In this document: positions 12,425 to 29,820 of the stretch, piece after piece | Layout of the letters: the number at the start of each line of letters is the position of its first letter | Position numbering within the stretch: the first letter of the stretch is position 1 | Assembly (NCBI GenBank): GCA_003649445.1 | Contig: QMRV01000023.1 | Span: forward strand, 1-37,109 | Source of the DNA: Thermoprotei archaeon | Lineage (GTDB): Archaea > Thermoproteota > Thermoprotei > Thermofilales > B15-G2 | Reading direction: 5' to 3' | DNA: 37,109 bases | Program-made: the position numbers and the translations under genes | Notes under the pieces: generated by a model | Seen by the model: only the letters and a program-made list of their open reading frames with translations | Told to the model about the DNA's origin: nothing | Databases searched by the model: none

Positions 12425-13110
12425 TAGTGCTTCATGTCGATATTGGGGGCTGCGAAGGATGTTCAATAAGCATTTTTAGAGCTTCATCCATGCTTAAAGA
12501 CGTAGAGATAATTAATAAATGTACAGCAGAAAGGGAAGTAGACTTAAGCAGAAACTATGAAATAGTATTTGTAACAGGGTCTGTTTGTATCAATGATGAG
12601 GACGTAGTGGAAAAGCTGAAGTTAGTTAGGAAGAACTGTAAAGTGTTAATAGCTTTTGGGTCCTGTGCGAGCGTCGGAGGTATAACGAGGTTCTGTAGAG
12701 GTGGGCAGGAGCCGAAGCCAGAGCACAGGACATTTCTTCCCTTAAACACAGTAGTAAAAGTAGATTACGCTATTCCAGGATGTCCTCCTCCGCCACAACT
12801 AGTTAGAATGTTTTTGACGCTTTATAAAAGAAACATGTTGCAGCAGCTAGCCGTATTCAAGGCCTTGAGTACTATAAAGAAGTTGAGCGGGTTCGATTTA
12901 TTAGACGATGTAGTGCTCACAGGGCTTTGTATAGGGTGTGGCGTCTGTGAACTTTCGTGTCCGACGGGAGCAATAGAGCTGCTGGGAGGTAGACCAGACT
13001 TAATTGTAGAAAAGTGCATTAGATGCGGTACATGCTATGTGCGTTGCCCGCAGGGGTCTAAATTACTGTTTAGGTCTCTAGAAGCTAATGTAAATAAGCA
13101 TAAAGTTTAA
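12421..13110 (+). CDS. frhG: Group 3 [NiFe]-hydrogenase small subunit with two [4Fe-4S] ferredoxin motifs, FrhG type
   Basis: 229 residues that carry electrons away from the Ni-Fe centre. The proximal cluster ligands are GGCEGCS (C11, C14), FGSCASVGG and IPGCPPPP. The C-terminus carries two ferredoxin sites, CIGCGVCELSCPTGAIE and CIRCGTCYVRCPQ, as in FrhG and unlike MvhG, which lacks them. With FrhA it forms the H2-reacting core, and the ferredoxin domain passes electrons to FrhB. The start ATG overlaps the end of frhA, so translation is coupled. Cluster count and length match the family. Confidence 0.92.
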   Translation: MIVLHVDIGGCEGCSISIFRASSMLKDVEIINKCTAEREVDLSRNYEIVFVTGSVCINDEDVVEKLKLVRKNCKVLIAFGSCASVGGITRFCRGGQEPKPEHRTFLPLNTVVKVDYAIPGCPPPPQLVRMFLTLYKRNMLQQLAVFKALSTIKKLSGFDLLDDVVLTGLCIGCGVCELSCPTGAIELLGGRPDLIVEKCIRCGTCYVRCPQGSKLLFRSLEANVNKHKV

Positions 13111-13127
13111 TTTAAAGTGGTGAGCAC

Positions 13128-13967
13128 GTGAGCTTTATACCAATTACACCTGAAAACCCTATTGGAAATGTGCGTAAAGTCTACTTAGCTCAGTCTATAG
13201 ACGAACGTATAAGAAAAATGCGAGCAGGAAGCGGTGGTGCAGTAACCTCTATTCTATGCTATTTGGTTGAAAAGGGTCTAAGCGATGGAGTAGTAGTCGC
13301 TAAAAGAACTAAGGGCTTTGAAGGAGAAGCTATAGTAGCTCATACTAGAGAAGAAATACTGAAGGCTGCGGGAAGCCGATGGAATATAGTTCCTTTCACA
13401 ACTAGATTGAAAAGGACTATAGAAGAGAAGGGATTGAAGAGAGTAGCTATAGTAGGGCTTCCTTGCCAAGCACAGTTCTTGGGTCAAATGCGGTACCTTC
13501 CTCTCCTCGAAACAGATTTCGGGGAAAGAATTTTTCTTATAGTAAGTCTATTCTGTATAGGAACTTTCGCTCACGAAGTATTCTTAAGTTTTCTTTACAG
13601 TAGATACGGAGTTAAAGCTAGTCAAATAAAGGACCTCAAACTAGTAGACAGCAAGTTTATAGTAGTTTTAGAGGAAGGAGAACTTGAAGTAGAGCTAAGA
13701 GAGGCTTTAGCATACTTACAGTCAGGCTGTTTGCTCTGTACAGATTACACAGGAGTACTTGCAGATATTTCAGCAGGGTCTGCGTCACAGTTTCCCGGAT
13801 TTACTCTACTTTTAGTAAGAAGTGCTATTGGAGAGAAAGTTGTAGAAGAAGCTGTAAGCGAGAACTATATAATGGTGAGAGAGGAACCAGAAGTTCTGGC
13901 AGAGGTCAAGAAAAAGGCACTAGAAAAAATTATGAGAGCAAGCAAGTACGCTACGCAACTACTTTAA
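13128..13967 (+). CDS. frhB: F420-reducing hydrogenase beta subunit, FrhB family
   Basis: 279 residues of the coenzyme F420 hydrogenase/dehydrogenase beta family: flavin- and iron-sulfur-containing proteins that reduce F420 or use its reduced form. Typical landmarks are AGSGGAVTSILCYLVEKG, VAIVGLPCQAQ, SLFCIG and QSGCLLCTDYTGVLADISAG; these cysteines are the likely [4Fe-4S] ligands. There is no N-terminal ferredoxin domain, which matches FrhB and not FpoF. Start GTG 13128, with GGTGA 4 nt upstream. It closes the frhA-frhG-frhB operon and overlaps the end of the convergent nuoM by 9 bp. Related FrhB proteins also serve other enzymes, so F420 as the substrate is a strong inference, not a proof. 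Confidence 0.9.
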   Translation: MSFIPITPENPIGNVRKVYLAQSIDERIRKMRAGSGGAVTSILCYLVEKGLSDGVVVAKRTKGFEGEAIVAHTREEILKAAGSRWNIVPFTTRLKRTIEEKGLKRVAIVGLPCQAQFLGQMRYLPLLETDFGERIFLIVSLFCIGTFAHEVFLSFLYSRYGVKASQIKDLKLVDSKFIVVLEEGELEVELREALAYLQSGCLLCTDYTGVLADISAGSASQFPGFTLLLVRSAIGEKVVEEAVSENYIMVREEPEVLAEVKKKALEKIMRASKYATQLL

Positions 13968-15503
13968 GGCGGTAACAAGCTCTACTAACGCTTTGAGACT
14001 AGGCGTAGTGAATTTTACTAAGGACAGCACTATCCATGGAGCGAAGCCTATTAGCACTATGAACACTGCTAAGCCGAGCATACCAGCTAGCATCCACTTA
14101 TTTGCTTCTTTTGCTTCAACTTCGATTTTCTCTTTGTACCAGAACACTTGCCAGAAGTATCTAAGTGAGTATGCTGCACTGATTAGAGTTGCTATAGCCA
14201 TGAATACTGCTATGTAAAGAAAGCTCGGGTTTACTGAAGCTATTGATGCAATACCTGCTATGATCATGAACTCCGATATGAAACATGGAAGTGGAGGAGC
14301 TCCAGCTATACTGAATATCGAGATTATTCCAGCGATTCCGGTATACGGCATTTTGTCCATTAACCCGCTCATTTTAGTTATGTCTCTCATATGAGTCTGG
14401 TGCATTACTGAGCCGCCGACAAGGAAGAAGAGTCCTTTGCTCCAAGCATGTGCTACTAAGTGGAATGCTACACCAAAGAGAGCTAGAGGATTAGCTCCAG
14501 CTAGTAGCGCATATGTGCCTGCTGCTTCGCCTGCGAGAATGTAGCCCATGTGTGATATACTTGAGTAGGCGATAATTCTCTTGACATCTACTTCTTTAAG
14601 TGCCATGAATCCTCCGTAAAACGCAGTAATTACGCCCAGTAGAGCCAGCGGTACCAGTATACTGGATGCCTCAGCCAAAGTGAGCGCAGGATTCTGCGCC
14701 AGTATAGTTAAGAAAGATATTCTTAGAATGGCATAAGCACCGGCCTCAATTATTATTCCGCTTAAGAGAGAAGACATAGGTGCAGGCGCCTCGCCGTGAG
14801 CATCTGGTAGCCATGTGTGCACGGGGAAGATAGCCATTTTTACAGCAAAGCCGAACGTTAGGAAGGCGAAGATGTAGATCCAGAAGGCAGCTATTTTGTC
14901 GTATAGCTGTTTTATCATGAATAGCTCTAATCCTTGGCCGCCGGTGAGCATCGCGAGCAGACCTAGGGCGACAATTATGAAGACTGCGCCCGCATGAGTG
15001 AATATGAAGAACTTAAACGCTACTTTAGCTGGATCTCGGTAGCCCCAGCGAGCTATGATGAAGTATGATGGTACTAGCATAAATTCCCAGAAAATGTAAA
15101 ATGCAAGGAGGTTTGCTGAAATGAATACTCCGAGCAAGCCTGTGTATAGCAGTGACAGTAGCGCGTAGAAGACTGGTTTTTCTCTTGTGATATATCCGCA
15201 GGAGTACAGTGCGGAGAACAGGAAGAGTATTGAAGTTGTTACCACTAGAACATAGCTTAATCCATCGATAAACAGTGTGAATTTAATGTTTGCTGCCTGC
15301 GGAGTGATTAAGTTTATCCATGCGTAAGACTCAGTGTAGATATTTGAATATCCTAGGTTAAAGAAAGCGTAGCTGTATAGAATTACTTCGAATACACTTA
15401 TTAGCAGTAGTAGCGCTAAGCCTATTTTTTCGGCTTTTTTCTCGGCTAAGTATATTATTGGAGCCGATACTACTGGAATTAAGAGACTTAACAAGAGGAT
15501 CAT
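13959..15503 (-). CDS. nuoM: Complex I-like antiporter subunit M of group 4 hydrogenase
   Basis: About 514 residues with around 14 membrane helices, an ion-translocating subunit of the Mrp-antiporter type. Conserved features: FWEFMLVPSYF (TM5 Glu), GFAVKMAIFPVHTWLPDAH (TM7 Lys, codon 14838-14840), GIIIEAGAYAILR (TM8) and GAPPLPCFISEFMII (TM12). At the TM8 position where bacterial NuoM has a channel Lys, this protein has Glu (codon 14745-14747), and TM12 reads SEF, as in NuoM. ATG 15503 is chosen because GGGGTG lies 7 nt upstream; an upstream in-frame GTG at 15512 is the alternative. It is the last gene of the 11-gene operon, overlaps nuoL, and meets frhB tail to tail. Confidence 0.92.
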   Translation of the reverse strand: MILLLSLLIPVVSAPIIYLAEKKAEKIGLALLLLISVFEVILYSYAFFNLGYSNIYTESYAWINLITPQAANIKFTLFIDGLSYVLVVTTSILFLFSALYSCGYITREKPVFYALLSLLYTGLLGVFISANLLAFYIFWEFMLVPSYFIIARWGYRDPAKVAFKFFIFTHAGAVFIIVALGLLAMLTGGQGLELFMIKQLYDKIAAFWIYIFAFLTFGFAVKMAIFPVHTWLPDAHGEAPAPMSSLLSGIIIEAGAYAILRISFLTILAQNPALTLAEASSILVPLALLGVITAFYGGFMALKEVDVKRIIAYSSISHMGYILAGEAAGTYALLAGANPLALFGVAFHLVAHAWSKGLFFLVGGSVMHQTHMRDITKMSGLMDKMPYTGIAGIISIFSIAGAPPLPCFISEFMIIAGIASIASVNPSFLYIAVFMAIATLISAAYSLRYFWQVFWYKEKIEVEAKEANKWMLAGMLGLAVFIVLIGFAPWIVLSLVKFTTPSLKALVELVTALK

Positions 15504-15504
15504 A

Positions 15505-17541
15505 TTATACACCCCATAGGACGAGAATTACTACAGCTAGAAGAATTACTAAACCTAAAAACGTGTAGGTGAGGAAGGATGAGAGTCTTCCAGTGTGTGC
15601 TTTCCTAATGAATCCTCCTAATTTAACTGCTCCATCGGCTATGATGTAATTAAGAGCGTCGAGAGCTCTGTCTACCAAGTAAGTTAGCGATGAAATAGCT
15701 TTTGCTAAAAGAACACTTCCAGTGACCTGTACAGCATTGAGTGCTCTTTCTACATACCAGCTGGCGGTACTACATACTTTAACGAAACCTCTTGCCAATA
15801 TTTGTTCGTAAAGGTAATCGAAGTAGTATCCGTTGACGAGTACAGTATTAAGTTTTCTAACAAATCCATATTTGTAGAATAGTTCTGGCGGATATTTTCT
15901 AGCTCCGTACACTGAATGCACTATTCCTATTGCTATCAAGGCTAAGAGAGTAGACATTACTGGGGTTATTATGTTTTCTTCGCTATGAGCATGTTCAATT
16001 AAGTAGACTGTTATGAGAGATTTTTTGAGTGGTCCAAAGAAGTGTTCAAAGAGTCCTGAAATTATAGCACCTGCAGCTAATATTAAAAGGGGTATAAGCA
16101 TTACTGGAGGCGACTCGTGTGGATGATGCTTTTTCACGTGTTCGCTTTCAGGTACGAGAAATGTTAGATAAATCATTCTGAAAGTGTAGAATGCTGTAAG
16201 GAAGGCTGTTATAGTTAAGAGTAGCGATATTATGTATTGCCCCGATATGTTAGCTACTTCTAAGATAAGATCCTTGCTCCAGAATCCGTTAAATGGAGGT
16301 ATTCCGGCTAAACCGAGGGCTCCGATAAGCATTGTTGCGAAAGTTATCGGCATATATTTCCTAAGTCCACCCATCAGTCTCATGTCTCTGCTTTCAACTG
16401 CATGTATTACGCTAGCGGCAGATAGGAAGAGGAGGGCTTTAAATATTGCGTGGTTCTCTAAGTGGAAGATTCCAGCGTACCATCCTTCCCATTCCTCTGC
16501 AATGAATCCGGCTAAGCCCAGCGCTGAGAACATGTAACCTAGCTGCGAAATAGTGGAGTAAGCTAATACTCTCTTTATGTCATTAGCTACAACGGCCATA
16601 GTGGCTGAAAGGAATGCTGTAAGTGAGCCTATCAGTGCTACGGCGAGGAAGAATTCGTGTATGGCGTGTGCTTCAATGGGGGTTGCGTAGAGAACTTTAG
16701 GGTAGAAAAGTGTCAGTGTTTCGAGCCTGGCTACTAAGTATACTCCGGCTTTGACCATTGTTGCTGCGTGAATTAGTGCCGAGACTGTAGTTGGGCCCTC
16801 CATGGCATCGGGGAGCCATACATGCAATGGAAGCTGAGCCGATTTTCCTATAGCGCCGCCCAGCGCTAAGAGTAGTATTAGAGGTAGAATATACTTTAAT
16901 GCGTGCACGTGTTCCGAGAACACTAAATAGTCTAGTGAGCCTACATGGAGCATTATCAAGGCAATTCCAGCCAGTAGAAGAACGTCACCTAGCCTGGTGG
17001 TAATAAATGCTTTTATTCCGGCTTTAGATGCTTCTTTCCTTTCGTACCAGTGTCCTATAAGTATACAGGAGCATATTCCAACAATTTCCCAGCCGATGTA
17101 AAGTAGGAAGAAGTTTGCGCCAAGCACTAGTATGAGCATACCTCCTACAAATAGCAGCAAGAAAACGTAGTAGCGAATGAGTCTTTTATCACCGTGCATG
17201 TAGCCCTTGGAGAACAAGAAGACCATGGATGATATTAGTGAGACAACGAACACCATTACTATGCTCAATGGATCTAGTAAGAATTTCAACTCAAATAGTT
17301 CTGTCTTGAAAGGCGCGTATGTCAATGAACTTAAGTCTACCACTATGTATGCTCCTTTTTCGGCTACTTCAGTGAAGTACGTGTAGACTAAGGAGAGCGA
17401 GAACGCTAATACTATAAAGGAGACGGCTATCGCAAAAATCTCAGCGATTTTTCTTGAAGCGCGTGAAAGTAGTATTACCAGCGGTATAGCTGCAAACGGT
17501 ATTATCAGTATTGATGCGGTCTCTAGACTCAACGATAGCAT
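15505..17541 (-). CDS. nuoL: Complex I-like antiporter subunit L of group 4 hydrogenase
   Basis: 678 residues, about 16 membrane helices, the distal antiporter-like subunit with the long C-terminal lateral helix region typical of NuoL. Seen: YIGWEIVGICSCILIGHWY (TM5 Glu), GGAIGKSAQLPLHVWLPDAM (TM7 Lys), LIHAATMVKAGVYLVARL (TM8 His), GIPPFNGFWSKDLIL (TM12 Lys). All ion-path residues are conventional here, unlike subunits N and M. The His-rich loop HVKKHHPHESPP lies near residue 480. Start ATG 17541, with GGGGTGA 5 nt upstream. A 132-bp gap with its own TATA-like box separates it from nuoN, so nuoL-nuoM may also be transcribed separately. Confidence 0.94.
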   Translation of the reverse strand: MLSLSLETASILIIPFAAIPLVILLSRASRKIAEIFAIAVSFIVLAFSLSLVYTYFTEVAEKGAYIVVDLSSLTYAPFKTELFELKFLLDPLSIVMVFVVSLISSMVFLFSKGYMHGDKRLIRYYVFLLLFVGGMLILVLGANFFLLYIGWEIVGICSCILIGHWYERKEASKAGIKAFITTRLGDVLLLAGIALIMLHVGSLDYLVFSEHVHALKYILPLILLLALGGAIGKSAQLPLHVWLPDAMEGPTTVSALIHAATMVKAGVYLVARLETLTLFYPKVLYATPIEAHAIHEFFLAVALIGSLTAFLSATMAVVANDIKRVLAYSTISQLGYMFSALGLAGFIAEEWEGWYAGIFHLENHAIFKALLFLSAASVIHAVESRDMRLMGGLRKYMPITFATMLIGALGLAGIPPFNGFWSKDLILEVANISGQYIISLLLTITAFLTAFYTFRMIYLTFLVPESEHVKKHHPHESPPVMLIPLLILAAGAIISGLFEHFFGPLKKSLITVYLIEHAHSEENIITPVMSTLLALIAIGIVHSVYGARKYPPELFYKYGFVRKLNTVLVNGYYFDYLYEQILARGFVKVCSTASWYVERALNAVQVTGSVLLAKAISSLTYLVDRALDALNYIIADGAVKLGGFIRKAHTGRLSSFLTYTFLGLVILLAVVILVLWGV

Positions 17542-17577
17542 GTAGTCACCCCTTTAGCACTCACAGTATCTTTCAAT

Positions 17578-17587
17578 TATTTAAAAA
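17578..17587 (-). promoter_or_regulatory. Internal TATA box before nuoL
   Basis: TTTTTAAATA on the minus strand, 37-46 nt before the nuoL ATG, inside the only sizeable gap of the operon. It would give a short leader containing the GGGGTGA ribosome binding site. Confidence 0.4.
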
Positions 17588-17673
17588 TCTAGCTATAGAG
17601 TAAGTATAATCTGATAAGGATCGCGCTCTCTAGTGTAAAGAGATCTATTAAACAAAAGTAAAGAATCGCTTAT

Positions 17674-19188
17674 TTATGTAAAGAAGCAGGCGAAGAGGTT
17701 CGGATACATTCCTGCAAGAACTAAAAGCGCTACGAGTAGTATTAGTGGAGCCACTAGCTTAAGGTCGGTTTTTCCAAAGCTGGTTCCGGGGCTTTCGTAG
17801 ACGCAGAAGTACTGTATTATACGTAGTCCATAGGCAGCTGAAACCACGAATAGAAGCGCCGCTATAACAGCTACGTAGACTAGAATAGTGTTCGCAGTCG
17901 AAGCTACTGAGGATATCACGAAGAATTTCGCTACAAAGCCTGCAAGTGGCGGGACTCCAAAAACTGACATTATGCTTATCGCAGTCAACATAGTGATCAA
18001 GGGAGCTTTCTTAACTAAGCCCTTGGCTTCATCTAAAGTATACACTCCTTTTTCTTCGACTAAGCCTATTAAGGCTACAGCTGTAGCTAGAGAAATATTG
18101 CTCACTGCAATAAAATAGGCTAATGGAAGAGCATAACTGGCCGTAGCGCCTACAGGTGGAGTTTTGGATGCAACGAAGAAGAGAGACAGCAGAACAACGT
18201 AGCCGGCGTCGGCTACAGCGCTGTAGCCGAGAATTCTTCGAAGCCTTCTTTGAGCCAGAGCGGAGGCTTCGCCTACGAGGATTGATAAAATAGAGAACAC
18301 AATGAGTATTATCATCGGTAAGGTGAGTACCCCTAGTGAAACTGGAAGAAGACTGTATACTCCGATTATTCTTGCTACAGCATATGCGCCAGCAGTTTCC
18401 AGTGTTAAAACCATTAGCGGAACCGCGTACGGCTTAGAGCCTGTGTAAACGTCGGGTAGCCACATATAAAATGGTGGAAGACCTATTTCTATGCCTAATC
18501 CAGCTAAAATTAAAGCGAATGATAGAAGAACTAAAGCTAGGCCTGTACCTTTAACTTTACTGATCAAGTTTACTACAGTATCGAAGTTAAGTATTTCAAT
18601 AGACGGCCTAGCTAAAGAAGCTACAGCCATGTATACTAGTACTACCGCTACTAGCATGAATATTGACGAAACTACAGCCATGAAAATCATTTTTATCAAA
18701 GCTTCACCGCTTTCTTCACTAGTCTTATACGACAGTACTCCTATTACGCTAGCTGTAGCAGCTTCCCACATGATCAAGAATATGAGGAAGTTATTAGATA
18801 CCGTAACTAAGATAGACGTCGCTATAAGTGACATAGCTAAAGCCACGAAATCTCCGCTTTCTTTTTTCTCGAGGTCTATTCTTTGTACTACATGGATTAG
18901 CATAAGGAAAGCTGCAGTGAGTATGATGAAGTTTATGAAGAGTGAGAGTGAGTCTACAGCAACGGCTGTGAAAATTCCTGCTCCGAAGTAAACTACTTTA
19001 GATGCACTTGAGGCGTATTGACTAAAAGCCTGATAGAAGAAAATTAGAGCCACAATGTATGTGGCAATAATCCATAAAGTGGAAAGCAGCTTTCTTCTGG
19101 CCTCAGTAAGCTTAGATGCTAACGCATATATTATTGAAGAGGCGTATATGGAAGCTATTTCCAGGATTATACATGAAGGTATATTCAT
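17674..19188 (-). CDS. nuoN: Complex I-like antiporter subunit N of group 4 hydrogenase, channel lysines replaced
   Basis: About 504 residues, around 14 membrane helices, an antiporter-like ion pump subunit. TM5 has LIMWEAATAS (Glu kept) and TM12 has GVPPLAGFVAKFFVIS (Lys kept). The TM7 motif, normally F-K-(hydrophobic) before PFHxWxPD, reads GLGIEIGLPPFYMWLPDVY: Lys is replaced by Glu (codon 18487-18489). TM8 LTLETAGAYAVAR also has Glu (codon 18397-18399) where NuoN has Lys. ATG 19188 follows GGGTGAT at a good spacing; GTG 19197 is an alternative. The assignment as N rests on PDVYTGSKP and length. It sits before L and M, as usual for the third antiporter copy. Confidence 0.88.
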   Translation of the reverse strand: MNIPSCIILEIASIYASSIIYALASKLTEARRKLLSTLWIIATYIVALIFFYQAFSQYASSASKVVYFGAGIFTAVAVDSLSLFINFIILTAAFLMLIHVVQRIDLEKKESGDFVALAMSLIATSILVTVSNNFLIFLIMWEAATASVIGVLSYKTSEESGEALIKMIFMAVVSSIFMLVAVVLVYMAVASLARPSIEILNFDTVVNLISKVKGTGLALVLLSFALILAGLGIEIGLPPFYMWLPDVYTGSKPYAVPLMVLTLETAGAYAVARIIGVYSLLPVSLGVLTLPMIILIVFSILSILVGEASALAQRRLRRILGYSAVADAGYVVLLSLFFVASKTPPVGATASYALPLAYFIAVSNISLATAVALIGLVEEKGVYTLDEAKGLVKKAPLITMLTAISIMSVFGVPPLAGFVAKFFVISSVASTANTILVYVAVIAALLFVVSAAYGLRIIQYFCVYESPGTSFGKTDLKLVAPLILLVALLVLAGMYPNLFACFFT

Positions 19189-19193
19189 GTATA

Positions 19194-19505
19194 TCACCCT
19201 TTAAGCTTACTCATTTCATCAGGAGATTTCACCTTAAACTTCCTGTAAATAAGCATTATACATGCTAAAAGTATTCCAGTTATACTTGAGTCAAGGAATA
19301 CCAGAAGCACGATGAATGTTTGACCTACTACTATACCTAGATAGCTACTAGAGAAAAGCAATATTCCTAGTAAAACCATCGCTGAAAGCACTATAATTTC
19401 AAGTGAGATTAGTATTTTTGCCCAGTTTCTCTTGGATAGTAGTCCATAGATTCCTACGGCCATCAGTATTACGCTAAAGTATAGATACGTGTTTAAGTAA
19501 TTCAT
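19194..19505 (-). CDS. nuoK: Complex I-like subunit K of group 4 hydrogenase
   Basis: 103 residues, three membrane helices, part of the ion path next to subunits J and N. E36 in ILISLEIIVL matches the conserved TM2 Glu of NuoK. In TM3 (GQTFIVLLVFLDSSITGILL) the second conserved Glu, expected 14 residues after the GQ glycine, is absent; an Asp sits one helical turn earlier. The C-terminal SPDEMSKLKG echoes the NuoK end. ATGA overlap with nuoJ upstream and TGA/GTG contact with nuoN downstream show coupled translation. Confidence 0.9.
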   Translation of the reverse strand: MNYLNTYLYFSVILMAVGIYGLLSKRNWAKILISLEIIVLSAMVLLGILLFSSSYLGIVVGQTFIVLLVFLDSSITGILLACIMLIYRKFKVKSPDEMSKLKG

Positions 19506-19951
19506 TTCTTCTCACCCTCTTTAATGATTACTCTAAGGCTTAAAGCTAAAGCTAAAATAAAGACTCCGTGAGCTAAGATAAGAGGAAGAGCGCTTTTATG
19601 TAAACCAAGTATCATTTCGGGAACTTCTCCTCTTAATTCAACTCTACTAAACACTGCTAGAAGTGTTAAAGCAAAGATAGAGGCTACTGTTAATCCTAGA
19701 GATTTTTTCTCTCTTTTTTCTTCTCTGGCAAGAGAGTATAGTGTAGCAATAAATGCGAAAGAGCCTAAGCTGAGAGCTAGAGCCATTAATGCTAATGCTA
19801 GAAGCTGAACATGAATCATGAATCCGGCTAATGATATGCTGAAAACTACGAAATATAGTAGAGATCTAGGAGGTCTTTTCTCTTCAATTGCCATTACTGC
19901 TGAAAATAAGGCTGTTATTCCTAATATTATAGATACCGCGACATTTATCAT
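19502..19951 (-). CDS. nuoJ: Complex I-like subunit J of group 4 hydrogenase
   Basis: 149 residues with about five membrane helices, typical of NuoJ in number and spacing. It sits between the iron-sulfur subunit I and subunit K and overlaps both by 4 bp. The sequence is weakly conserved, so the call rests on helix pattern, length and position. HVQLLALALMALALSLGSFA is the third-helix region that contains the pi-bulge in complex I structures. Methanogens often have two J genes; this has one. Confidence 0.8.
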   Translation of the reverse strand: MINVAVSIILGITALFSAVMAIEEKRPPRSLLYFVVFSISLAGFMIHVQLLALALMALALSLGSFAFIATLYSLAREEKREKKSLGLTVASIFALTLLAVFSRVELRGEVPEMILGLHKSALPLILAHGVFILALALSLRVIIKEGEKK

Positions 19952-20340
19952 CGTCTAACACCTCTTTTTAAAGGCTTGACCTTTTCTTTAGGAGTAACTA
20001 TCTTTAGGGTATCTTTATTATATGTAGCTAGCTCAAATTCTCCTGAAGGCTTTATTGCACCGAACCTGCATGCTTCGATGCATTGGTGACAGAAAATGCA
20101 ACGGTCTAAGTAGAATATGGGAATTCTTCTCTTTACTTCTTGAATTGTTATCATTTCAATTGCGCCGCTAGGACAGTAAATTGCACAGAGTCCGCAGCCT
20201 ACACATTTATCTACATCGTAGACTATTTTCCCTCTTATATTATGTGAAGGCTTCGGAGGCTCGAATGGGTACTGCTCTGTTACAGGCTTCTTAAAAACTG
20301 ATTTAATTACAGCCGGAATTAGTTTCGGGACGACTCTCAT
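19948..20340 (-). CDS. nuoI: Ferredoxin-type [4Fe-4S] subunit I of group 4 hydrogenase
   Basis: 130 residues with two [4Fe-4S] motifs, CVGCGLCAIYCPSGAIEM and CIFCHQCIEACRFGAIKP, the electron wire between the external donor and subunit B. An N-terminal amphipathic stretch docks to the membrane arm in relatives. Because NuoE, NuoF, NuoG and FpoF are missing from the operon, this is the likely point where ferredoxin delivers electrons. It overlaps nuoH and nuoJ by 4 bp. Confidence 0.93.
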   Translation of the reverse strand: MRVVPKLIPAVIKSVFKKPVTEQYPFEPPKPSHNIRGKIVYDVDKCVGCGLCAIYCPSGAIEMITIQEVKRRIPIFYLDRCIFCHQCIEACRFGAIKPSGEFELATYNKDTLKIVTPKEKVKPLKRGVRR

Positions 20341-21326
20341 AGTATTACACCCGGTAGAGCTTTAATAATAAATAAAATAGATAGAGAAAGGAATGATAGC
20401 GGTATTATGTATTTCCAGAAAATATCTAGCAGATTATATATTCTGATTCTAGTAGAGGCTGCTTCTATAGCGAAAAGCATAAAGAGAACGAGCATTGCTT
20501 TAATGAGCATTTCGATAGTGCTAAGCGGCACAAATATAGCTGAAATCGGGGGTATGAGAACGCCGAAGAATAATGAAGCTGTGAAAAATGATACATAAAC
20601 CATCTGAATATCTCTGAAAAGATCTAGGAAGGCTAGTTTTCTTCCCGAAATCTCTGTAATATAACCTGCTACTAGTTCTGTTTCAGCGTGAGGGATATCG
20701 AAGGGATCTTCTTCTAAGTCTGCCTGCTGAGAAAGCAAGAACAAGATGAATGCGAGTATATGAGGTGCTAGTAGAAGGGGATTTTTGAGAATTGTTGAGG
20801 GAAGTTTTTGAGCTATCGTCGCTATGCATAGACTTTCTGCCTCAAATGCCGGTACAAGCGCTAATGTTATGGCAGCTATATCGAAGCCCACTATTTGTAA
20901 TAAGAGTCTCACTGCGCCAGCTTTAGTGAAGGAGCTTCTGAAAGTCCATCCAACGAGATATAAGAGAAGAGAAGCCATGGATGATAAGAAGAGTACTAGT
21001 AGTAGGTCTCCTTCAAACGAGAAGATAGGTGTACCCATTACTGGGACGAAGAACAGGCTGAAAATGAAGAGCGTAGGTGCCACAAGTAGAACTACTGTAA
21101 GAAGTCTCTGGTCGCCTGTAGTGACTTCGATGTCTTCCTTAAAGAGGAGCTTGAGGAAATCGGCTAAAGGCTGAAGAATTCCTCTAAAGCCAGTGTATGT
21201 AGGACCAAGCCTACTTTGCATTCTTGCTACTAGTTTTCTTTTGTACCATTCAAAAAATATTGCGAGCGCCACTAAGTAAGCGAGTCCGGGAAAAACTATT
21301 ACCTGAATTAATTTAAAGTACTCCAT
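20337..21326 (-). CDS. nuoH: Complex I-like subunit H of group 4 hydrogenase, membrane anchor
   Basis: 329 residues, about eight membrane helices. The signature YKRKLVARMQSRLGPTYTG (near residue 30) and FDIPHAETELVAGYITEISG (acidic loop near residue 220) match the NuoH/HycD family that joins the peripheral arm to the membrane arm and lines the first half-channel. In complex I the counterpart loop binds quinone; in group 4 hydrogenases it couples H2 chemistry to ion transfer. ATG 21326 follows GGTGAG. The nuoD stop is 4 nt upstream. Confidence 0.93.
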   Translation of the reverse strand: MEYFKLIQVIVFPGLAYLVALAIFFEWYKRKLVARMQSRLGPTYTGFRGILQPLADFLKLLFKEDIEVTTGDQRLLTVVLLVAPTLFIFSLFFVPVMGTPIFSFEGDLLLVLFLSSMASLLLYLVGWTFRSSFTKAGAVRLLLQIVGFDIAAITLALVPAFEAESLCIATIAQKLPSTILKNPLLLAPHILAFILFLLSQQADLEEDPFDIPHAETELVAGYITEISGRKLAFLDLFRDIQMVYVSFFTASLFFGVLIPPISAIFVPLSTIEMLIKAMLVLFMLFAIEAASTRIRIYNLLDIFWKYIIPLSFLSLSILFIIKALPGVIL

Positions 21327-21330
21327 TTTC

Positions 21331-22494
21331 TCACCTTCTCCAATATTTCTTCTTTATCTCCTCAAGAGATAGTTTCATTACTTTACCGGAAGAAACATCT
21401 ATGAAAGTAAGTCTATCTGTACACGAGAAACAGGGATCTATGGACACGAGTATAGCGGGGACATCCGCTATTGTATGGCCGATGAAGGTTGGAGCTATAG
21501 CCAGTATATTTGCGAAAGTAGGTGTCCTGACTTTGAGCCTATAGGGCTTGACATCTCCTTTACAGAACACGTGGTGTAGGAGCTCTCCTCGAGGTGCTTC
21601 TACTCTACTTACTCCTTCTCCTGCAGGAAGTCTCGCTGGAACTCTAACTCTGATATCTCCTTGAGGAAGATGTTTTAGAGCATAGCGTATTATGTTAATA
21701 GACTCAAGGGTTTCATCAACTCTTACCATCATGCGCGCCCATGAGTCACACTCCTTGTAAGTTATCACGTTGAATGGTATTTCATCAAAAGCTGCATAAG
21801 GATCATGTGCTCTCACATCGTAGTCTACACCCGATCCTCTTGCAGTAGGCCCGACGGCGCATCTTTCAATAGCGTCTCTCGGCTTCAGAATACCTATATC
21901 GACCATTCTTTCTCTGTAGAGAGGATCTTCCTCGAGCACTTTCTTATGGAACTTTGTGTCCTTCTCTACCTTATCCAGAATCTTCAATATTTTTTCTTTC
22001 TGAGTATCATTTATATCACGTCTAACTCCTCCAATCGTATTAAACGCGGAAGTCACTCTGTTTCCTGTGACATCTTCTATTATATCCATTATTGCTTCAC
22101 GGTCTCTCCAAAGATACATGAACTCTGTCTCCCAGCCGAGAAGCTCTGCTGCGACTCCGAGAATTAAGAGGTGGCTGTGAATACGGTTTAGTTCATGCAC
22201 TATTACTCTTAGGTACTTGGCTCTCTCGGGAACTTCTATTCCGGCCATGTCTTCTACTGCCTGTACGTAGCATAGGGTATGTGCTACATTACAGATACCG
22301 CATATTCTTTCGGTTAAGTAAATATTCTGAATAAAGTTCTTGGTTTCTGCAAGCTTCTCTATACCGCGGTGAATATAACCTATCTTAACGTCAACGTCTA
22401 CAATTATTTCGCCGTCTACTTTAAATCTAAATCTCTCAGGCTCGTGTAGAGCTGGGTGCTGAGGTCCGAAGAGCAAGTCTACAGCATACGACAT
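21331..22494 (-). CDS. nuoD: Group 4 [NiFe]-hydrogenase large subunit, NuoD-like
   Basis: 387 residues. Overall like NuoD/FpoD/EchE (GPQHPALHEPERFRFKVDGE at the N-terminus, IGYIHRGIEKLAE, NRIHSHLLILG). It has the Ni-Fe ligand motifs that true complex I has lost: RICGICNVAH (C65, C68, H72) and DPCFSCTDR (C355, C358), followed by a 26-residue tail resembling the group 4 extension. It should therefore hold a Ni-Fe centre and catalyse H2 production or uptake, facing the cytoplasm. ATG 22494 has GAGGTGAT close upstream. Gene order is A-B-C-D-H-I-J-K-N-L-M. An inactive relative is unlikely with all four cysteines kept. Confidence 0.92.
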   Translation of the reverse strand: MSYAVDLLFGPQHPALHEPERFRFKVDGEIIVDVDVKIGYIHRGIEKLAETKNFIQNIYLTERICGICNVAHTLCYVQAVEDMAGIEVPERAKYLRVIVHELNRIHSHLLILGVAAELLGWETEFMYLWRDREAIMDIIEDVTGNRVTSAFNTIGGVRRDINDTQKEKILKILDKVEKDTKFHKKVLEEDPLYRERMVDIGILKPRDAIERCAVGPTARGSGVDYDVRAHDPYAAFDEIPFNVITYKECDSWARMMVRVDETLESINIIRYALKHLPQGDIRVRVPARLPAGEGVSRVEAPRGELLHHVFCKGDVKPYRLKVRTPTFANILAIAPTFIGHTIADVPAILVSIDPCFSCTDRLTFIDVSSGKVMKLSLEEIKKKYWRR

Positions 22495-22498
22495 GCCA

Positions 22499-22939
22499 TC
22501 ACCTCTTCTTCCTTAAAGGGAAGTAGTCTTTCGGAAAATGTTCGGGCAAAATAAATGATTTTTTCAGCTTATCATTTCCTTTAAACACTATTCCAAATAG
22601 ATCGTATACTTCACACTCATTGAAAAGTGCTCCTGGAATAACTCCGACTATTGAAGGCAGCTCGGGTTTACTTGGATTCACTTTGGCTTTAAGCACTAGT
22701 GCTACCTTTGGGCTGTACAGCCATAAATCGTAGAATACTTCAAGATAATCTATGTAATCAACAGCTGAAATCGTGGTTACATGTATATCTCCAAAAGAAT
22801 CTTTAAGAGCCTTAACTGCCTTGTCCACCACTTCAGCTTTAACTTCGACTATGTAAAGTCTATCTCTTTTCTTCTTTATGTCTACCAGGTACTCTCTTAG
22901 GCAGCCTTGCAGTTTTTCAAGGAAACTGTTTCTGCTCAT
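22499..22939 (-). CDS. nuoC: Complex I-like subunit C of group 4 hydrogenase
   Basis: 146 residues, the 30-kDa subunit/NuoC family. The family signature is visible as FNECEVYDLFGIVFKGN (residue 110 region), then LPEHFPKDYFPLRKKR at the end. It is a structural subunit of the peripheral arm that clamps B and D together. It is separate from nuoD, unlike the fused CD of some bacteria. The start ATG overlaps the nuoB stop by 4 bp. Confidence 0.93.
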   Translation of the reverse strand: MSRNSFLEKLQGCLREYLVDIKKKRDRLYIVEVKAEVVDKAVKALKDSFGDIHVTTISAVDYIDYLEVFYDLWLYSPKVALVLKAKVNPSKPELPSIVGVIPGALFNECEVYDLFGIVFKGNDKLKKSFILPEHFPKDYFPLRKKR

Positions 22940-23373
22940 TTAGCTTCACCCTTAAGCTTCTGAAGAAGTAAAACGACACCTTTTATAATAGCTTCAGGGC
23001 GTGGAGGGCATCCTGGCACGTAAACATCTACAGGAATCACCGTGTCTACTCCTCCTTTAATGGTGTAGCCTCCTCTAAAGACTCCTCCGCTGCATGCGCA
23101 TGTTCCAACAGCTATTACGAATTTGGGCTGTGGAACTTGCTCATATATTCTCTTGACTCTCTCGGCCATTTGCTCTGTTACAGGTCCTGTCACTAAGAGT
23201 ACGTCTGCGTGACGCGGGGATCCGACGAGCTTTATTCCAAATCTCTCTACGTCAAATCGCGGAGTTAGCGCAGCCAGTATTTCTATGTCGCAGGCATTAC
23301 AGCTACCTGTATTTATGTGATAGATCCAGGGGGACTTTATTCTAGACCATAGAGCTAGTCGATAGAGAGACAT
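22936..23373 (-). CDS. nuoB: Group 4 [NiFe]-hydrogenase small subunit, NuoB-like
   Basis: 145 residues holding the [4Fe-4S] cluster closest to the active site. Ligands: NTGSCNACDIEILAAL (C25, C28), GTCACSGG (C92) and VPGCPPRPEAI (C122). Complex I NuoB has a tandem CC where this has CxxC followed by D, the pattern of group 4 hydrogenases such as Ech, Mbh and formate hydrogenlyase. RFDVERFGI and RHADVLLVTGPVT are typical of that group. Start ATG 23373, with GAGGTGA upstream. This supports the reading of the D subunit as a real hydrogenase. Confidence 0.94.
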   Translation of the reverse strand: MSLYRLALWSRIKSPWIYHINTGSCNACDIEILAALTPRFDVERFGIKLVGSPRHADVLLVTGPVTEQMAERVKRIYEQVPQPKFVIAVGTCACSGGVFRGGYTIKGGVDTVIPVDVYVPGCPPRPEAIIKGVVLLLQKLKGEAK

Positions 23374-23377
23374 AGCT

Positions 23378-23707
23378 TCACCTCAATATAATCAAGCATG
23401 CAATAAGCACAATCATCAAGTACAAAGATAGAATAGGGTAAAAGATAGGAGATGATCTCAAGAATATTAGAAGAAGGCCTGTTATTACAGGAACAGAATC
23501 AAAAATAGCGAAAACGAGAATATACTTAAAGTAGGTTATGGAGAAGTTATCTAAAGTAAACATTTCCCTCTCGCCGCAGGCGAAAATTCTTCTCTTGTCT
23601 CCTTCCTTAGGGTTCTTAGGAGCAAGTTTACCTGCGGTAATATAAGTGAGAGCGAGCAGAACAAAGGTCAGTATCAAGGATATAACCATAATTAATCCTT
23701 CCTCCAT
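23378..23707 (-). CDS. nuoA: Complex I-like subunit A in a hydrogenase operon
   Basis: 109 residues, three membrane helices. NuoA landmarks are present: ACGEREMF (the Cys-Gly-Glu loop that in complex I touches the quinone cavity), then FKYILVFAIFDSVPVITGLL for the FY...AI.FxIFD motif. It is the first gene of the operon. NuoA is characteristic of complex I and is not part of the well-known minimal group 4 hydrogenases (Ech, Hyc), so its presence here is informative. Start ATG 23707, with GGAGG 6 nt upstream inside a hairpin. Identification is good but the sequence is divergent. Confidence 0.82.
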   Translation of the reverse strand: MEEGLIMVISLILTFVLLALTYITAGKLAPKNPKEGDKRRIFACGEREMFTLDNFSITYFKYILVFAIFDSVPVITGLLLIFLRSSPIFYPILSLYLMIVLIACLIILR

Positions 23708-23846: not shown

Positions 23847-25094
23847 CTACTTTAGCTCGATACCTTTTGTCTCTGGGAATAGCCAGATGAGAGCCGAGGC
23901 GATGTAAGCTGAAAGTGCCGCCCCCCAACTCCAGTGGAGCGAGAGCCAAGCCACTAGCACTGGACTAATGAAGTTTATTCCCCTGCCAGTGTTGAAGATA
24001 AAACCGAGAGCAGTACTTCTAACTTTTGTCGGGAAGAGTTCTGAAAGAACAGCGCCGAATCCGCTCCAGAAACCAGTGAAGAATCCTAAAAAGAGTCCTG
24101 CGGCTAGCATTAGTAAGGGGTCTTTTATTAAGAGGACGTATGCTAGGATCATAGTGGCTTCAGAGGCAGTAAATATTGTCTATGTTATTCTTCTGCCGAG
24201 CTTGTCTTGCAAATATCCGTAGGAGATGTATCCGAGCCAAGCTCCTACTTGAGTTACTATCAACCACTCGGCGCTCCTTACTACGGTAAATCCTCTTTCT
24301 TTAGCTAAAAACACTGGAACCCAGCTCCAGAACATCCAGTAAGAAAACATGGCTAAGACGTCTATCGCTAAACCAATCAGTGTTCTGAAGACAAGCTTCC
24401 TTGAAAAGAGATAGAGCAGGCTTATTCTATGCTTTTCTTTATCTTTACTCTGTAGCCATAGCGTAGACTCAGGCACCTTAGATCGAACATATATGACTAA
24501 CAGTACAGGAATACTTGCCGCAGCAAAAGCAGCTCTCCAGCCGAATATTGGGTATATGAGAATAGTGTCTGCGATAGCTATGAGTACTCCGAGGGGCCAA
24601 CCAGACTGCACTAAGCCCACTGCGAAGCCTCTTTTTTCAGCTGGGACAATTTCTGCTACTAAAGTCATGCCAGTGCTCCATTCTGCTCCCAGCCCTAATC
24701 CTACAATAAAGCGGAAGAGTATTAGCTCGTAAAAGGTTCTTGAGAGAGCTATCCCTATAGTTGCAGCACCATAAATAAGCAGTGATGTCATTAGCACTTT
24801 AACTCTGCCGAATTTATCAGCGAGTATGCCAGATCCTATTCCTCCTATAACTGTTCCTATTAGTCCCACCGATATAGCTAGCCCAAAGGCTATTCTGTCG
24901 ATATTGAGCGTGGTCATTACTGGTATAGCTAACATGGAAAATAGCATGAAGTCGAAGGCCTCAAAAGCCCACCCTAACATTACTGCTACTATAGTATGTA
25001 GTGCCTCGCCTTTTAGACTAGTTTCCTCACCGTATATCTGTGTGTCTTCTTCTCCAGAGTATAATGCATCGCCCTTAAGGCTACTTGAAAACAT
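23847..25094 (-). pseudogene. MFS transporter interrupted by a single in-frame amber codon
   Basis: Reads as one 415-codon major facilitator superfamily protein of the metabolite:H+ symporter type (12 helices) but for TAG at 24180-24182. Before it: FEAFDFMLFSMLAIPVM (TM1), ADKFGRVKVL (loop 2-3 signature), FIVGLGLGAEWSTGMTLVAE (TM4), WPLGVLIAIADTILIY, up to LQDKLGRRIT. After it, in the same frame, TIFTASEATMILAYVLL continues through ELFPTKVRSTALGF to a normal end FPETKGIELK. A one-base change (for example TGG to TAG) explains the stop. The product, if truncated, would lack the last four or five helices. TATA TTTATACTT at 25115-25123 suggests a leaderless ATG 25094. Substrate unknown, probably an organic acid or sugar. 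Confidence 0.82.
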
Positions 25095-26611: not shown

Positions 26612-28414
26612 ATGAGTGTTGAACGCCGAGGAGTCATAAGAAAGGTTAGCGGGCCTGTAGTTGTTGCTGAAGGTATTCCCGATATCAAGTTAGGAGAAGT
26701 AGTCGATGTTGGTAGAGAAAGACTTATCGGTGAAGTCGTTAGAATTTCTGAAAACTTCTTCACAATACAAGTCTACGAGTCCACCAGTGGAATTAAGCCT
26801 GGAGAGCCAGTTTATGCCACCGGTAAGTTACTTGTAGCCGAGCTTGGCCCTGGCTTAATGAGCACTATTTTCGATGGAGTCCAGAGACCCTTAGAGGAAA
26901 TACTCAGAAGGGCTGGAAGCTTTATCAAAAGAGGAATAAAGGTAAATGCGCTTCCAAGAAATAAAAAGTGGTATTTCAAGCCTACTGTCTCTAAGGGAGA
27001 GAAAGTGGAAGGAGGAGATGTTCTAGGTATAGTAAAGGAAACACCGTTAATAGAGCACAAAGTAATGGTTCCTCCAGGTATTAGTGGAGAAGTAACGAAA
27101 ATTGAGGAAGGAGAATTTACTATAGAAGAGCCTGTAGCGGTGCTTGAGAAAAACGGCAGAGAAATAGAAGTTAAAATGTATCACGAGTGGCCTGTGAGAG
27201 TTCCTAGACCCTATAAGAGGAGATTGCCTTTAATAGTGCCACTCGTTACAGGCCAAAGAGTACTAGACACGTTCTTCCCAATAGCTAAAGGTGGCGCAGC
27301 TTGTATACCAGGAGGCTTCGGCACCGGAAAAACTGTCACTTTACATAAAGTAAGCATGTATAGTGACGCTGATATAGTTGTCTACATTGGATGTGGAGAA
27401 AGAGGTAATGAGATGTGTGAGCTGTTAACAGAGTTTCCGAAGCTAATAGACCATAGAAGCAAGCGTCCGCTAATCGAAAAGAGTATAATGATAGCCAATA
27501 CATCTAACATGCCTGTCTCGGCCCGTGAGGCGAGCATCTACATGGGAGTAACTATGGCTGAGTACTACAGAGACATGGGCTACGACGTCGCCTTAATAGC
27601 CGACTCTACTTCTAGATGGGCTGAAGCTCTCAGAGAGATATCGGGTAGACTTGGAGAAATGCCTGTAGAAAGAGGATTTCCTGCCTACCTGCCTGACAGA
27701 ATAGCCGAATTCTATGAGCGAGCCGGCCGAGTAGAGTGCTTAGGCAGACCAGATAGAGTAGGCTCGCTTACAATAATGGGTGCAGTTTCTCCTCCAGGCG
27801 GCGACTTCAATGAGCCTGTTACAATACATACTCTGAGGTTCGTTGGAGCAATGTGGGCTCTGTCGACAGATCTAGCTTACAGAAGACACTTCCCTGCAGT
27901 AGACTGGCTCAAGAGCTTCAGTCAGTACGCTGATATAGTTGAAGAGTGGTGGAGAAAAGAAGTAGCAGAAGACTTCGCGCAATACAGACGCAGAGCGCTT
28001 AACCTGCTCACAGTGGCTTCTGAAATAGAAGCTATAGCCTCTATAGTCGGTGAAGGAGCCTTACCAGACGACCAGAGGCTAATTCTCCTCGCAGCAGAAA
28101 TAATTAGGGAAGGTTTCCTTGTACAGACAGCGCTCGAAGGAGTAGACGTCAGGTGCTCGCCGGTAAAACAGTACTGGATGCTGAAAATGATGATGGATTT
28201 CTATGATAAAGCCTATGTATTGATCAAGAACAGAGTACCTATCGACGAAATAGCCGAGCTGCCCGAAGTCTTCGAGATGATGAGAGTCAAAGATGATGAA
28301 AGAGATCTAGAGGCAGTAAAAGACCTCTACGAAAGAGTTATGAAGGCTCTAGAAAATATTGCTAAGAAGTATAATATTTCACTAGAAGCTTTCAAAGAGG
28401 TGGGTTTAAGGTGA
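26612..28414 (+). CDS. atpA: A-type ATP synthase catalytic subunit A
   Basis: 600 residues, the normal length for the catalytic A subunit of archaeal A1AO ATP synthase. The P-loop is GGFGTGKT (about 234-241). Other landmarks are the non-homologous insert after residue 115, [46 protein letters not shown] and the C-terminal [13 protein letters not shown] [20 protein letters not shown]. It makes or hydrolyses ATP, driven by rotation of the central stalk. First gene of atpA-B-D-C; its TGA overlaps the GTG start of atpB. No intein. Confidence 0.97.
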
Positions 28415-29820
28415 GTGAGGAGTTTAGGTATATTAAAGAATATCAAGGTAAGTGGTATAAAGGAGCACGAGAGATCAGAGGCTCATTGATGTTTGTAGAA
28501 AAAGTGGGAAATGTAGGATACGATGAAGAAGTTAAAATAATAGGAACAGATGGCAGAGAAAGAGTAGGAAGGGTTCTTGAAACCAGTCAAGACGAAGTAG
28601 TAATCCAGATACTAGGCGATAGGGCTGGTCTGACAACAGACTGTCTTATTCACTTCACAGGAACTACGTTCAAAATAAGGGTTTCTGAAGAAGTTCTTGG
28701 AAGGATGTTTAATGGACGCTTTGAGCCAATAGACGGCTTGCCTCCAGTAATGTTTGGTGAGAAAAGAGAGATAACAGGAGAGCCGATAAACCCTGTCGCA
28801 AGAGAGTATCCACATGATTTTATTCAGACAGGAATATCTGCCATAGACGGAAGCCTAAGTCTCGTAAGAGGACAAAAGCTGCCAATATTCAGTGTATCTG
28901 GTCTTCCTCACAATATGCTTGCAGCACAAATAGCTAGACAGGCTACTGTAAGAGGAAAAGAGGAAGAATTCGCAGTAGTCTTCGCGGGAATCGGTCTAAG
29001 AAGCGCTGAAGCAGAGTTCTTCGTAAAAGAGTTCACAGAATCCGGCGCCATCGAGAGATCAGTAGTAATCCTAAATCTGGCAGAAGATCCTGCAGTAGAA
29101 AGACTCATGACTCCAAGAATAGCTCTTACAGTAGCCGAGTACCTTGCTTTCGAGTTAGAAATGCATGTACTAGTCATATTGACTGATATGACAAACTACT
29201 GTGAAGCTCTACGCGAAATGAGCGCAGCAAGAGGAGAAATTCCAGGCAGAATGGGCTACCCAGGATACATGTATTCTGACCTAGCCACAATATACGAGAG
29301 AGCAGGAATAATTAAAGGCAAGAAAGGCAGCATAACGTTGCTCCCGATTCTTACAATGCCCGGCGGAGATTTAAGACATCCAATACCAGACCTTACAGGA
29401 TATATTACTGAGGGACAGATAATACTTAGCCAGGAGCTTCATGCTCGCGGAATATATCCACCTATAAACGTTCTGCCGAGCCTAAGCAGATTAATGAAAG
29501 CTGGCATAGGTCCTGACAAAACAAGAGAAGACCACAAGTATGTTGCAGAGCAGCTCTACGATGCTTATTCCAGAGGAGTAAAAGCAAGAGATTTGGCAAG
29601 AATCGTAGGAGAAGTTGGACTAAGCCCGAGAATGAGAAGATTCCTCAAATTTGCTGATGAGTTCGAAAACAGGTACGTTAAACAAGGAGTAAGAGAAAAT
29701 AGAAGTATTGAAGAGACCTTAGATATCGCCTGGGAAGTCCTATCACTACTACCCGAAGAAGAGCTAGTAAGAATACCGAAACACATCATATCAAAGTACC
29801 ATCCTGCACATAGTGGATAG
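28411..29820 (+). CDS. atpB: A-type ATP synthase regulatory subunit B
   Basis: 469 residues, family length. It alternates with A in the headpiece. The P-loop is degenerate (SGLPHN), as expected for B. Conserved stretches: [56 protein letters not shown] and [20 protein letters not shown]. Start GTG 28411 overlaps the atpA stop. The next gene, atpD, begins 2 nt after the stop codon. Confidence 0.97.

Follow-up and report, generated by a model that had tools for sequence, protein, structure and literature searches.

The window analysed here, 37,109 nucleotides of contig QMRV01000023.1 from a Thermoprotei archaeon (assembly GCA_003649445.1), carries an eleven-gene operon on the minus strand at positions 13959-23707. 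Its product is very probably a membrane-bound [NiFe] hydrogenase that translocates ions and belongs to the Hfo kind, the Fpo-like hydrogenases placed in subgroup 4g by Loh et al. The sequence supports this through the gene set, the Ni-Fe ligands, the family placement, the homology of subunits A, J and K to NuoA, NuoJ and NuoK, and two maturation genes in a related genome. The kind itself is already known: in 2021 Loh, Herve and Brune reported "Hfo", an Fpo-like [NiFe] hydrogenase of Bathyarchaeia that has 11 subunits, shares the genes and ligands found here and corresponds to HydDB subgroup 4g (PMC7886697). An earlier sequence-only reading of the window had taken the complex for something new, to be given up if a known family had the same 11 genes and ligands; Hfo is such a family (PMC7886697), and a novel family is ruled out. 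What the window adds is a new archaeal branch; of further interest are a charge swap in the N subunit and neighbours of the F420 type.

Organization of the operon

The sequence-only reading listed nuoA, B, C, D, H, I, J, K, N, L and M in one operon, and all eleven open reading frames (ORFs) were found closely packed on the minus strand in the order A-B-C-D-H-I-J-K-N-L-M. Its coordinates, 21331-23707, covered D, C, B and A, whereas the operon runs over 13959-23707. Intergenic gaps were -8 to +4 bases, with the sole exception of 132 bases between N and L. Gaps this small leave no space for extra genes, and neither NuoE/F/G, FpoF/O nor an Mbh-type Na+ module was found inside the operon. Pfam and NCBIfam matches named every operon gene except J.

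A second Thermoprotei archaeon locus (L043) carries the 11 genes in identical order, and its D is 94% identical to that of the window; a single-genome oddity is therefore excluded.

Catalytic subunits and maturation

The catalytic large subunit D (21331-22494, minus strand, as for all operon genes) was identified by its motifs, its matches in PDB and its position in the tree. Its L1 motif reads RICGICNVAH and its L2 motif DPCFSCTDR, with Ni-Fe cysteines 65, 68, 355 and 358 among eight cysteines in all (65, 68, 75, 212, 249, 311, 355, 358). The two ligand pairs, C65/C68 and C355/C358, are present as first noticed and were invariant in an alignment of 19 sequences. The protein continues for a 26-residue C-terminal tail beyond R361. 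In Pfam it matched Complex1_49kDa (248 bits) and NiFeSe_Hases (56 bits), and it also passed the NCBIfam NuoD model PRK06075 (383.8, cut-off 360). Among solved structures the scores were 312 bits for MbhL, 276 for HycE and 236 for the best complex I chain.

The small subunit B (22936-23373) is of the hydrogenase type. As had been noted, it carries CxxC where complex I has CC: it reads GSCNACDIE (C25, C28), where two B subunits of complex I show ACC and SCC, and has further cysteines at C92, C94 and C122. Its Pfam match was Oxidored_q6 (126 bits), and its best PDB match was MbhJ (203 bits), followed by HycG (148) and Nqo6 (130).

Maturation genes of the HycI type and HypD were searched for in the genome of L043 (G001), which yielded a HycI-type peptidase (41.5 bits, cut-off 23) and HypD (447 bits, cut-off 25). 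Both fit the C-terminal tail of D, as a processed, Ni-loaded D would need the two of them.

None of 30 complex I-type D proteins of Thermoproteota (L102-L131) matched the L1 or L2 pattern, with L122 keeping one L2 cysteine. At another locus (L151, 8575-9690) we observed a complex I-type D that lacks the L1 pattern and still reads DPCLGEIDR at L2, a single ligand cysteine being left.

Membrane arm and remaining subunits

We compared profiles of the small membrane subunits with those of complex I by hhalign, as the sequence-only reading had proposed for NuoA and NuoJ; both matched when broad profiles were used. The A subunit (23378-23707; NuoA type, ACGE motif at residue 43) barely passed Pfam Oxidored_q4 (23.7 bits, cut-off 23.3), with an NCBIfam match below its cut-off. 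Against 11 complex I NuoA it scored 97.6% with a profile of 57 rows (window plus hydrogenase loci) and 93.7% with five window-clade rows. The very divergent J subunit (19502-19951) had no Pfam or NCBIfam match above a curated cut-off; it scored 98.1% against NuoJ with 49 rows, and 65.6% over 29 columns with window-clade rows alone. The K subunit (19194-19505) matched Pfam Oxidored_q2 (46 bits) and NuoK at 99.4%. Mismatched subunit pairs, run as a control, gave at most 1.9%. The top seven Foldseek matches of a structure model of J (mean predicted local distance difference test score, pLDDT, 75.8) were NuoJ/ND6, none significant (best E 0.11); the model of A (mean pLDDT 76.5) had no Foldseek match and was uninformative. 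Profile comparison identifies A, J and K as relatives of NuoA, NuoJ and NuoK, the match being weakest for J with window-clade rows alone.

The H subunit (20337-21326; NuoH type, Pfam NADHdh 218 bits, placed by its tree) scored higher against the complex I chains NdhA (114 bits) and Nqo8 (98) than against MbhM (68) and HycD (36). Since D and B are closest to Mbh among solved structures and H is closer to complex I than to Mbh, the complex looks like a peripheral arm of hydrogenase character joined to a membrane arm that resembles the one of complex I. The make-up and the NuoA-, NuoJ- and NuoK-type subunits thus bear out the earlier suggestion of a putative energy-converting [NiFe] hydrogenase on a complex I frame.

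The C subunit (22499-22939) is of the 30 kDa type (Pfam Complex1_30kDa, 83 bits), and I (19948-20340), recognised by profile match and motifs, has two four-cysteine cluster motifs where ferredoxin presumably docks. The three antiporter-like subunits were told apart by best phmmer score. L (15505-17541) is NuoL type by Pfam, by its transmembrane (TM) residues and, by eye, by its C-terminus; M (13959-15512) is NuoM type (NCBIfam NDH_I_M 312 bits, cut-off 264); and N (17674-19197) is a NuoN relative by alignment and tree.

Phylogenetic placement and relation to complex I

We confirmed 397 relatives and kept the best 80 loci. The D tree (82 proteins) was rooted on three group 3-type sequences, which are distant and on long branches. 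The complex I sequences came from E. coli, from Sinorhizobium and from genomes of one archaeal phylum, with a Haloarcula plasmid NuoCD added in the D tree; true Fpo (Methanosarcina) and Ech were left out. The outgroups of the H and B trees did not lie on one side of a branch.

The window D grouped with Bathyarchaeal Hfo, three Bathycorpusculum loci among them, in a clade of 27 rows (93/99, not starred). In the H tree (59 proteins) the clade of the window had 18 rows and again held Bathyarchaeal Hfo (100/96, starred), the branching order being left open. When B, C, D, H and I were joined (34 loci, three of them lacking B), the window and Bathyarchaeal Hfo formed a clade of nine (100/99, starred); complex I and other 4g rows made up a group with weak support (82/92) that did not include it. 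Membership in Mbh was ruled out by the D tree, where eight Mbh or Mbh-like rows, four of them from Thermococcales, formed their own clade (100/99, starred) without the window. The B, D and H trees called for by the sequence-only reading, with Ech and Fpo among the comparisons, were thus obtained in part: D and H place the window with Bathyarchaeal Hfo and D places it outside Mbh, while the B tree was uninformative.

In the D tree the 16 complex I-type proteins formed one clade (100/100, starred) nested within the group 4 hydrogenases, among those of the subgroup 4g type. A branch of 67 rows (96/90, starred) held complex I and the remaining hydrogenases except L090 and L091; outside it lay the eight Mbh or Mbh-like rows and two Hyc-type rows. 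In approximately unbiased (AU) tests on D, pairing complex I with Mbh was rejected (p 0.0109), whereas pairing it with Hfo (p 0.331), with the Culexarchaeia-type rows plus L021 (p 0.289) or with the Asgard/Wolframiiraptor-type rows (p 0.215) was not. On the five joined subunits, complex I with Hfo gave p 0.27 and complex I with L021 p 0.36; the best tree joined complex I to the Culexarchaeia-type rows with support of 67/20.

Complex I therefore appears to have arisen among such hydrogenases, with several sister placements unrejected and the window having no special claim. The sequence-only reading had suggested that this complex is possibly close to the ancestor of complex I; the nesting among 4g-type enzymes and the rejection of Mbh agree with the general idea, and the unrejected alternatives give the window clade no privileged position. 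To judge from the trees and the N alignment, the window is nested well within its own clade and carries an apparently derived change in N.

The D proteins of L003, L011, L013, L014, L028 and L046 lie near the window clade, and the H proteins of the last five form a separate clade. An exchange of peripheral arms between membrane arms, suggested by this mismatch, was dropped, as joining the H clades (with the window-clade seven) was not rejected at 0.05 (p 0.0845). A Thermoprotei hydrogenase from isolate AUK163 (L021, 8739-14878) has an N that groups with NuoN (98/90, starred) and is a candidate closer relative of complex I.

A charge reversal in the N subunit

We examined the positions of E. 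coli NuoN K217 (TM7) and K247 (TM8), the two central lysines in the presumed ion channel, in 23 clade N subunits, comprising 18 Bathyarchaeal proteins, four of the window clade and the window itself (examples are L043, L006, L007, L010 and L075). Both positions were acidic in all 23 (Glu at the first, Asp or Glu at the second), and lysine in all 11 complex I NuoN compared (E. coli, Sinorhizobium and nine archaeal). The positions of E133 and K395 were conserved in the same 23 proteins, which anchors the alignment. Two further proteins classed as N (L021 and L144) have lysine at TM7. In a tree built with the TM7 and TM8 columns named for removal, Hfo N formed one clade (15 rows, 100/99, starred), sister to NuoN plus L021 (98/96, starred). 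Among 16 other hydrogenase N-like proteins, hand-picked from gene position and an earlier tree, the TM7 residue was K in 8, T in 6, S in 1 and E in 1 (L013); given this spread, the change from lysine to acid looks derived in Hfo.

Key residues of L (E144, K229, K399) and M (E144, K234, E407) were kept in the window and its clade. Loss of the TM8 lysine in M was considered as a diagnostic and dropped, since 7 of 9 complex I M proteins lack that lysine too (five G, two E).

In a study of E. coli NuoN, K247A severely reduced both activities, and K217A roughly halved electron transfer and left pumping largely intact (PMC13073174). The swap offers a natural experiment on K247, reported to be essential for complex I of E. 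coli (PMC13073174). No report of a lysine-to-acid swap in N was found in a limited search of partly available literature. It is possible, and we suggest it only tentatively, that the Hfo membrane arm has been re-wired, with an N that would not pump protons as NuoN does or would carry another ion such as Na+; together with the FrhB-CBS partners described below, Hfo would then be a machine of its own, linked to ions and to F420, and not a frozen ancestor of complex I.

Distribution among related loci

The sequence-only reading treated a NuoA-type subunit as exceptional in a hydrogenase. This did not hold: A directly preceded B, with a hydrogenase-type D, in 57 of the 80 best loci (54 without three weak A matches, L053, L061 and L078, scoring near 30 bits), and Hfo had been described (PMC7886697). 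As the subunit is usual among the relatives, NuoA most simply predates the loss of the Ni-Fe site. The complete 11-gene set was visible in 24 of the 80 loci, many others ending at contig edges. Two loci (L003 and L004) are places on one contig, and L009 and L010 are close in every score. With the window, the hydrogenases that have the complete eleven-part frame of complex I gain a new archaeal branch.

Split versions of the complex were also observed. In L007 (528-10412) the membrane-arm genes A, H, J, K, N, L and M are divergent from B-C-D-I, and in the covered part of L002 A and H are likewise divergent from B-C-D-I.

Proposed function and alternatives

From the subunits we infer the activity, electron donor, direction, ion and stoichiometry of the complex. 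Electrons from reduced ferredoxin would enter at the two four-iron clusters of I and travel by way of B's proximal cluster to the Ni-Fe site in D, there reducing protons to H2. The antiporter-like N, L and M would receive the free energy via H, A, J and K, and the resulting ion gradient might feed the adjoining A-type ATPase. With plentiful H2 the complex could also run in reverse.

Several observations weigh against assignment to Hfo and to this scheme. The window follows the A to K order of Fpo and Nuo and then continues N-L-M, whereas Bathyarchaeal operons have L-M-N; its C and D are separate genes, and D was fused to C in the Bathyarchaeal loci examined. The B tree (145 columns, poorly resolved, outgroup split) did not recover the Hfo clade: its eight complex I B proteins formed one clade (100/98, starred), and the window B joined only L043 in a small starred set. 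Being so short and poorly resolved, this tree speaks neither for nor against the Hfo clade. Next to several Hfo operons, FrhB-type genes hint at an alternative electron partner. At the time of Loh et al., subgroup 4g had no biochemically characterised member (PMC7886697), and the Pyrodictium delaneyi proteome paper, in its available text, discusses group 1g and type 3 hydrogenases and not the Hfo-like one (PMC8105010).

The electron partner suggested by those FrhB genes is a serious competitor of ferredoxin alone. The complex might exchange electrons with F420 through FrhB-type subunits, forming with the adjacent FrhAGB an F420/H2/ion device that does not depend on ferredoxin alone. In the window, an FrhA-FrhG-FrhB set with Ni-Fe motifs abuts M in convergent orientation. 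In six Bathyarchaeal loci N is followed, on its own strand and after 15-131 bases, by an FrhB homologue (L009 11940-13445, L010 18537-20042, L012 9369-10892, L017 18315-19874, L037 18400-19944 and L040 18411-19961), and in three more (L044, L049, L051) such a gene precedes A by 186-895 bases. Domain scans of three of the nine (L010, L017, L044) showed Fer4, FrhB_N, FrhB_C and two CBS domains in each; in L028, B-C-D-I is followed 6 bases on by an FrhB homologue with Fer4 and no CBS. The term 'CBS domain' was absent from papers matching FrhB and Bathyarchaeia in one open-licence literature search. Nevertheless, FrhB homologues were found in only 13 of the 80 loci, many of which end early, and the window FrhB is on the opposite strand within its own FrhAGB set, whose scores fall below curated cut-offs (TIGR03295 260, TIGR03294 197 and PRK09325 190 bits). 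We consider F420 coupling unlikely for this complex.

Two other explanations turn on its relation to complex I. A quinone-reducing complex I that merely retained the cysteines would account for the NuoD model match of D and for an H that, by eye, retains the acidic loop of the quinone chamber; it is scarcely credible beside four ligands in both motif contexts, the CxxC of B, the tail of D, HycI and HypD in the related genome, and the 30 complex I-type D proteins of Thermoproteota without either motif pattern. It is also quite improbable that complex I's direct precursor lives on in this complex. The D tree, with complex I nested among these hydrogenases, Mbh outside and their pairing rejected at p 0.011, points in that direction, as does the sister position of the clade's N to NuoN plus L021. 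Against it stand the three unrejected sister placements on D and the p of 0.27 with Hfo on five joined subunits, the apparently derived acids in N, and the open branching order of the H tree. A ferredoxin-linked hydrogenase of the Hfo kind remains our preferred reading.

Neighbouring genes

The FrhA-FrhG-FrhB set, an F420-reducing-type [NiFe] hydrogenase at 11240-13967 on the plus strand, was not counted in the complex. The A and B genes of an A-type ATPase, the presumed user of the ion gradient, lie at 26612-29820 on the plus strand, their ORFs being named by eye. An AtpA homologue was present within the fetched stretch in 6 of the 80 loci. L043 shares with the window the ATPase, a phosphoglycerate-mutase-like gene (named by eye) and a neighbour of the major facilitator superfamily (MFS) type. 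The MFS transporter gene of the window (23847-25094) is apparently split into ORFs at 24180-25094 and 23847-24152, and its counterpart in L043 (8270-8731) also looks short.

Comparison with known systems

The closest named system is Bathyarchaeal Hfo, which shares with the window the 11 subunits, the L1 and L2 motifs, an operon without FpoF/O or NuoEFG, and the D and H clades. Beyond the differences in gene order and in C and D, the window D has its 26-residue tail, whereas the six D proteins of the Bathycorpusculum-type clade in the tree stop at the L2 arginine; and the window clade consists of Thermoprotei metagenome-assembled genomes, unlike Bathyarchaeal Hfo. Loh et al. proposed that Hfo connects hydrogenases with complex I more closely than Mbh does, and reported Hfo-like complexes of nearly the same organisation in Methanomethylicus mesodigestum and P. 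delaneyi (PMC7886697). The sequences of those two organisms were left out of our D tree; in it, D of Methanomethylicus sp. (L064) and of three Methanomethylicia/Methanomethylicota loci (L034, L057, L071) fell in other 4g clades than the window. Asgard archaea are reported to have a group 4 complex I-like hydrogenase (PMC11291895); D of the Asgard-type loci L058 and L067 lay in another clade, the paper's own sequences being outside the comparison.

Pyrococcus Mbh (PDB 6cfw) is the best solved match for both D (312 bits) and B (203 bits). Mbh is not known to have a NuoA-type subunit. It also carries the Na+ module MbhABCF (PMC7886697), a difference from the window complex. With respiratory complex I and Fpo the window shares the same eleven core subunits, with H, A, J, K, N, L and M of their type; unlike them, it keeps the Ni-Fe ligands and the CxxC of B, and has acids in place of the lysines of N.

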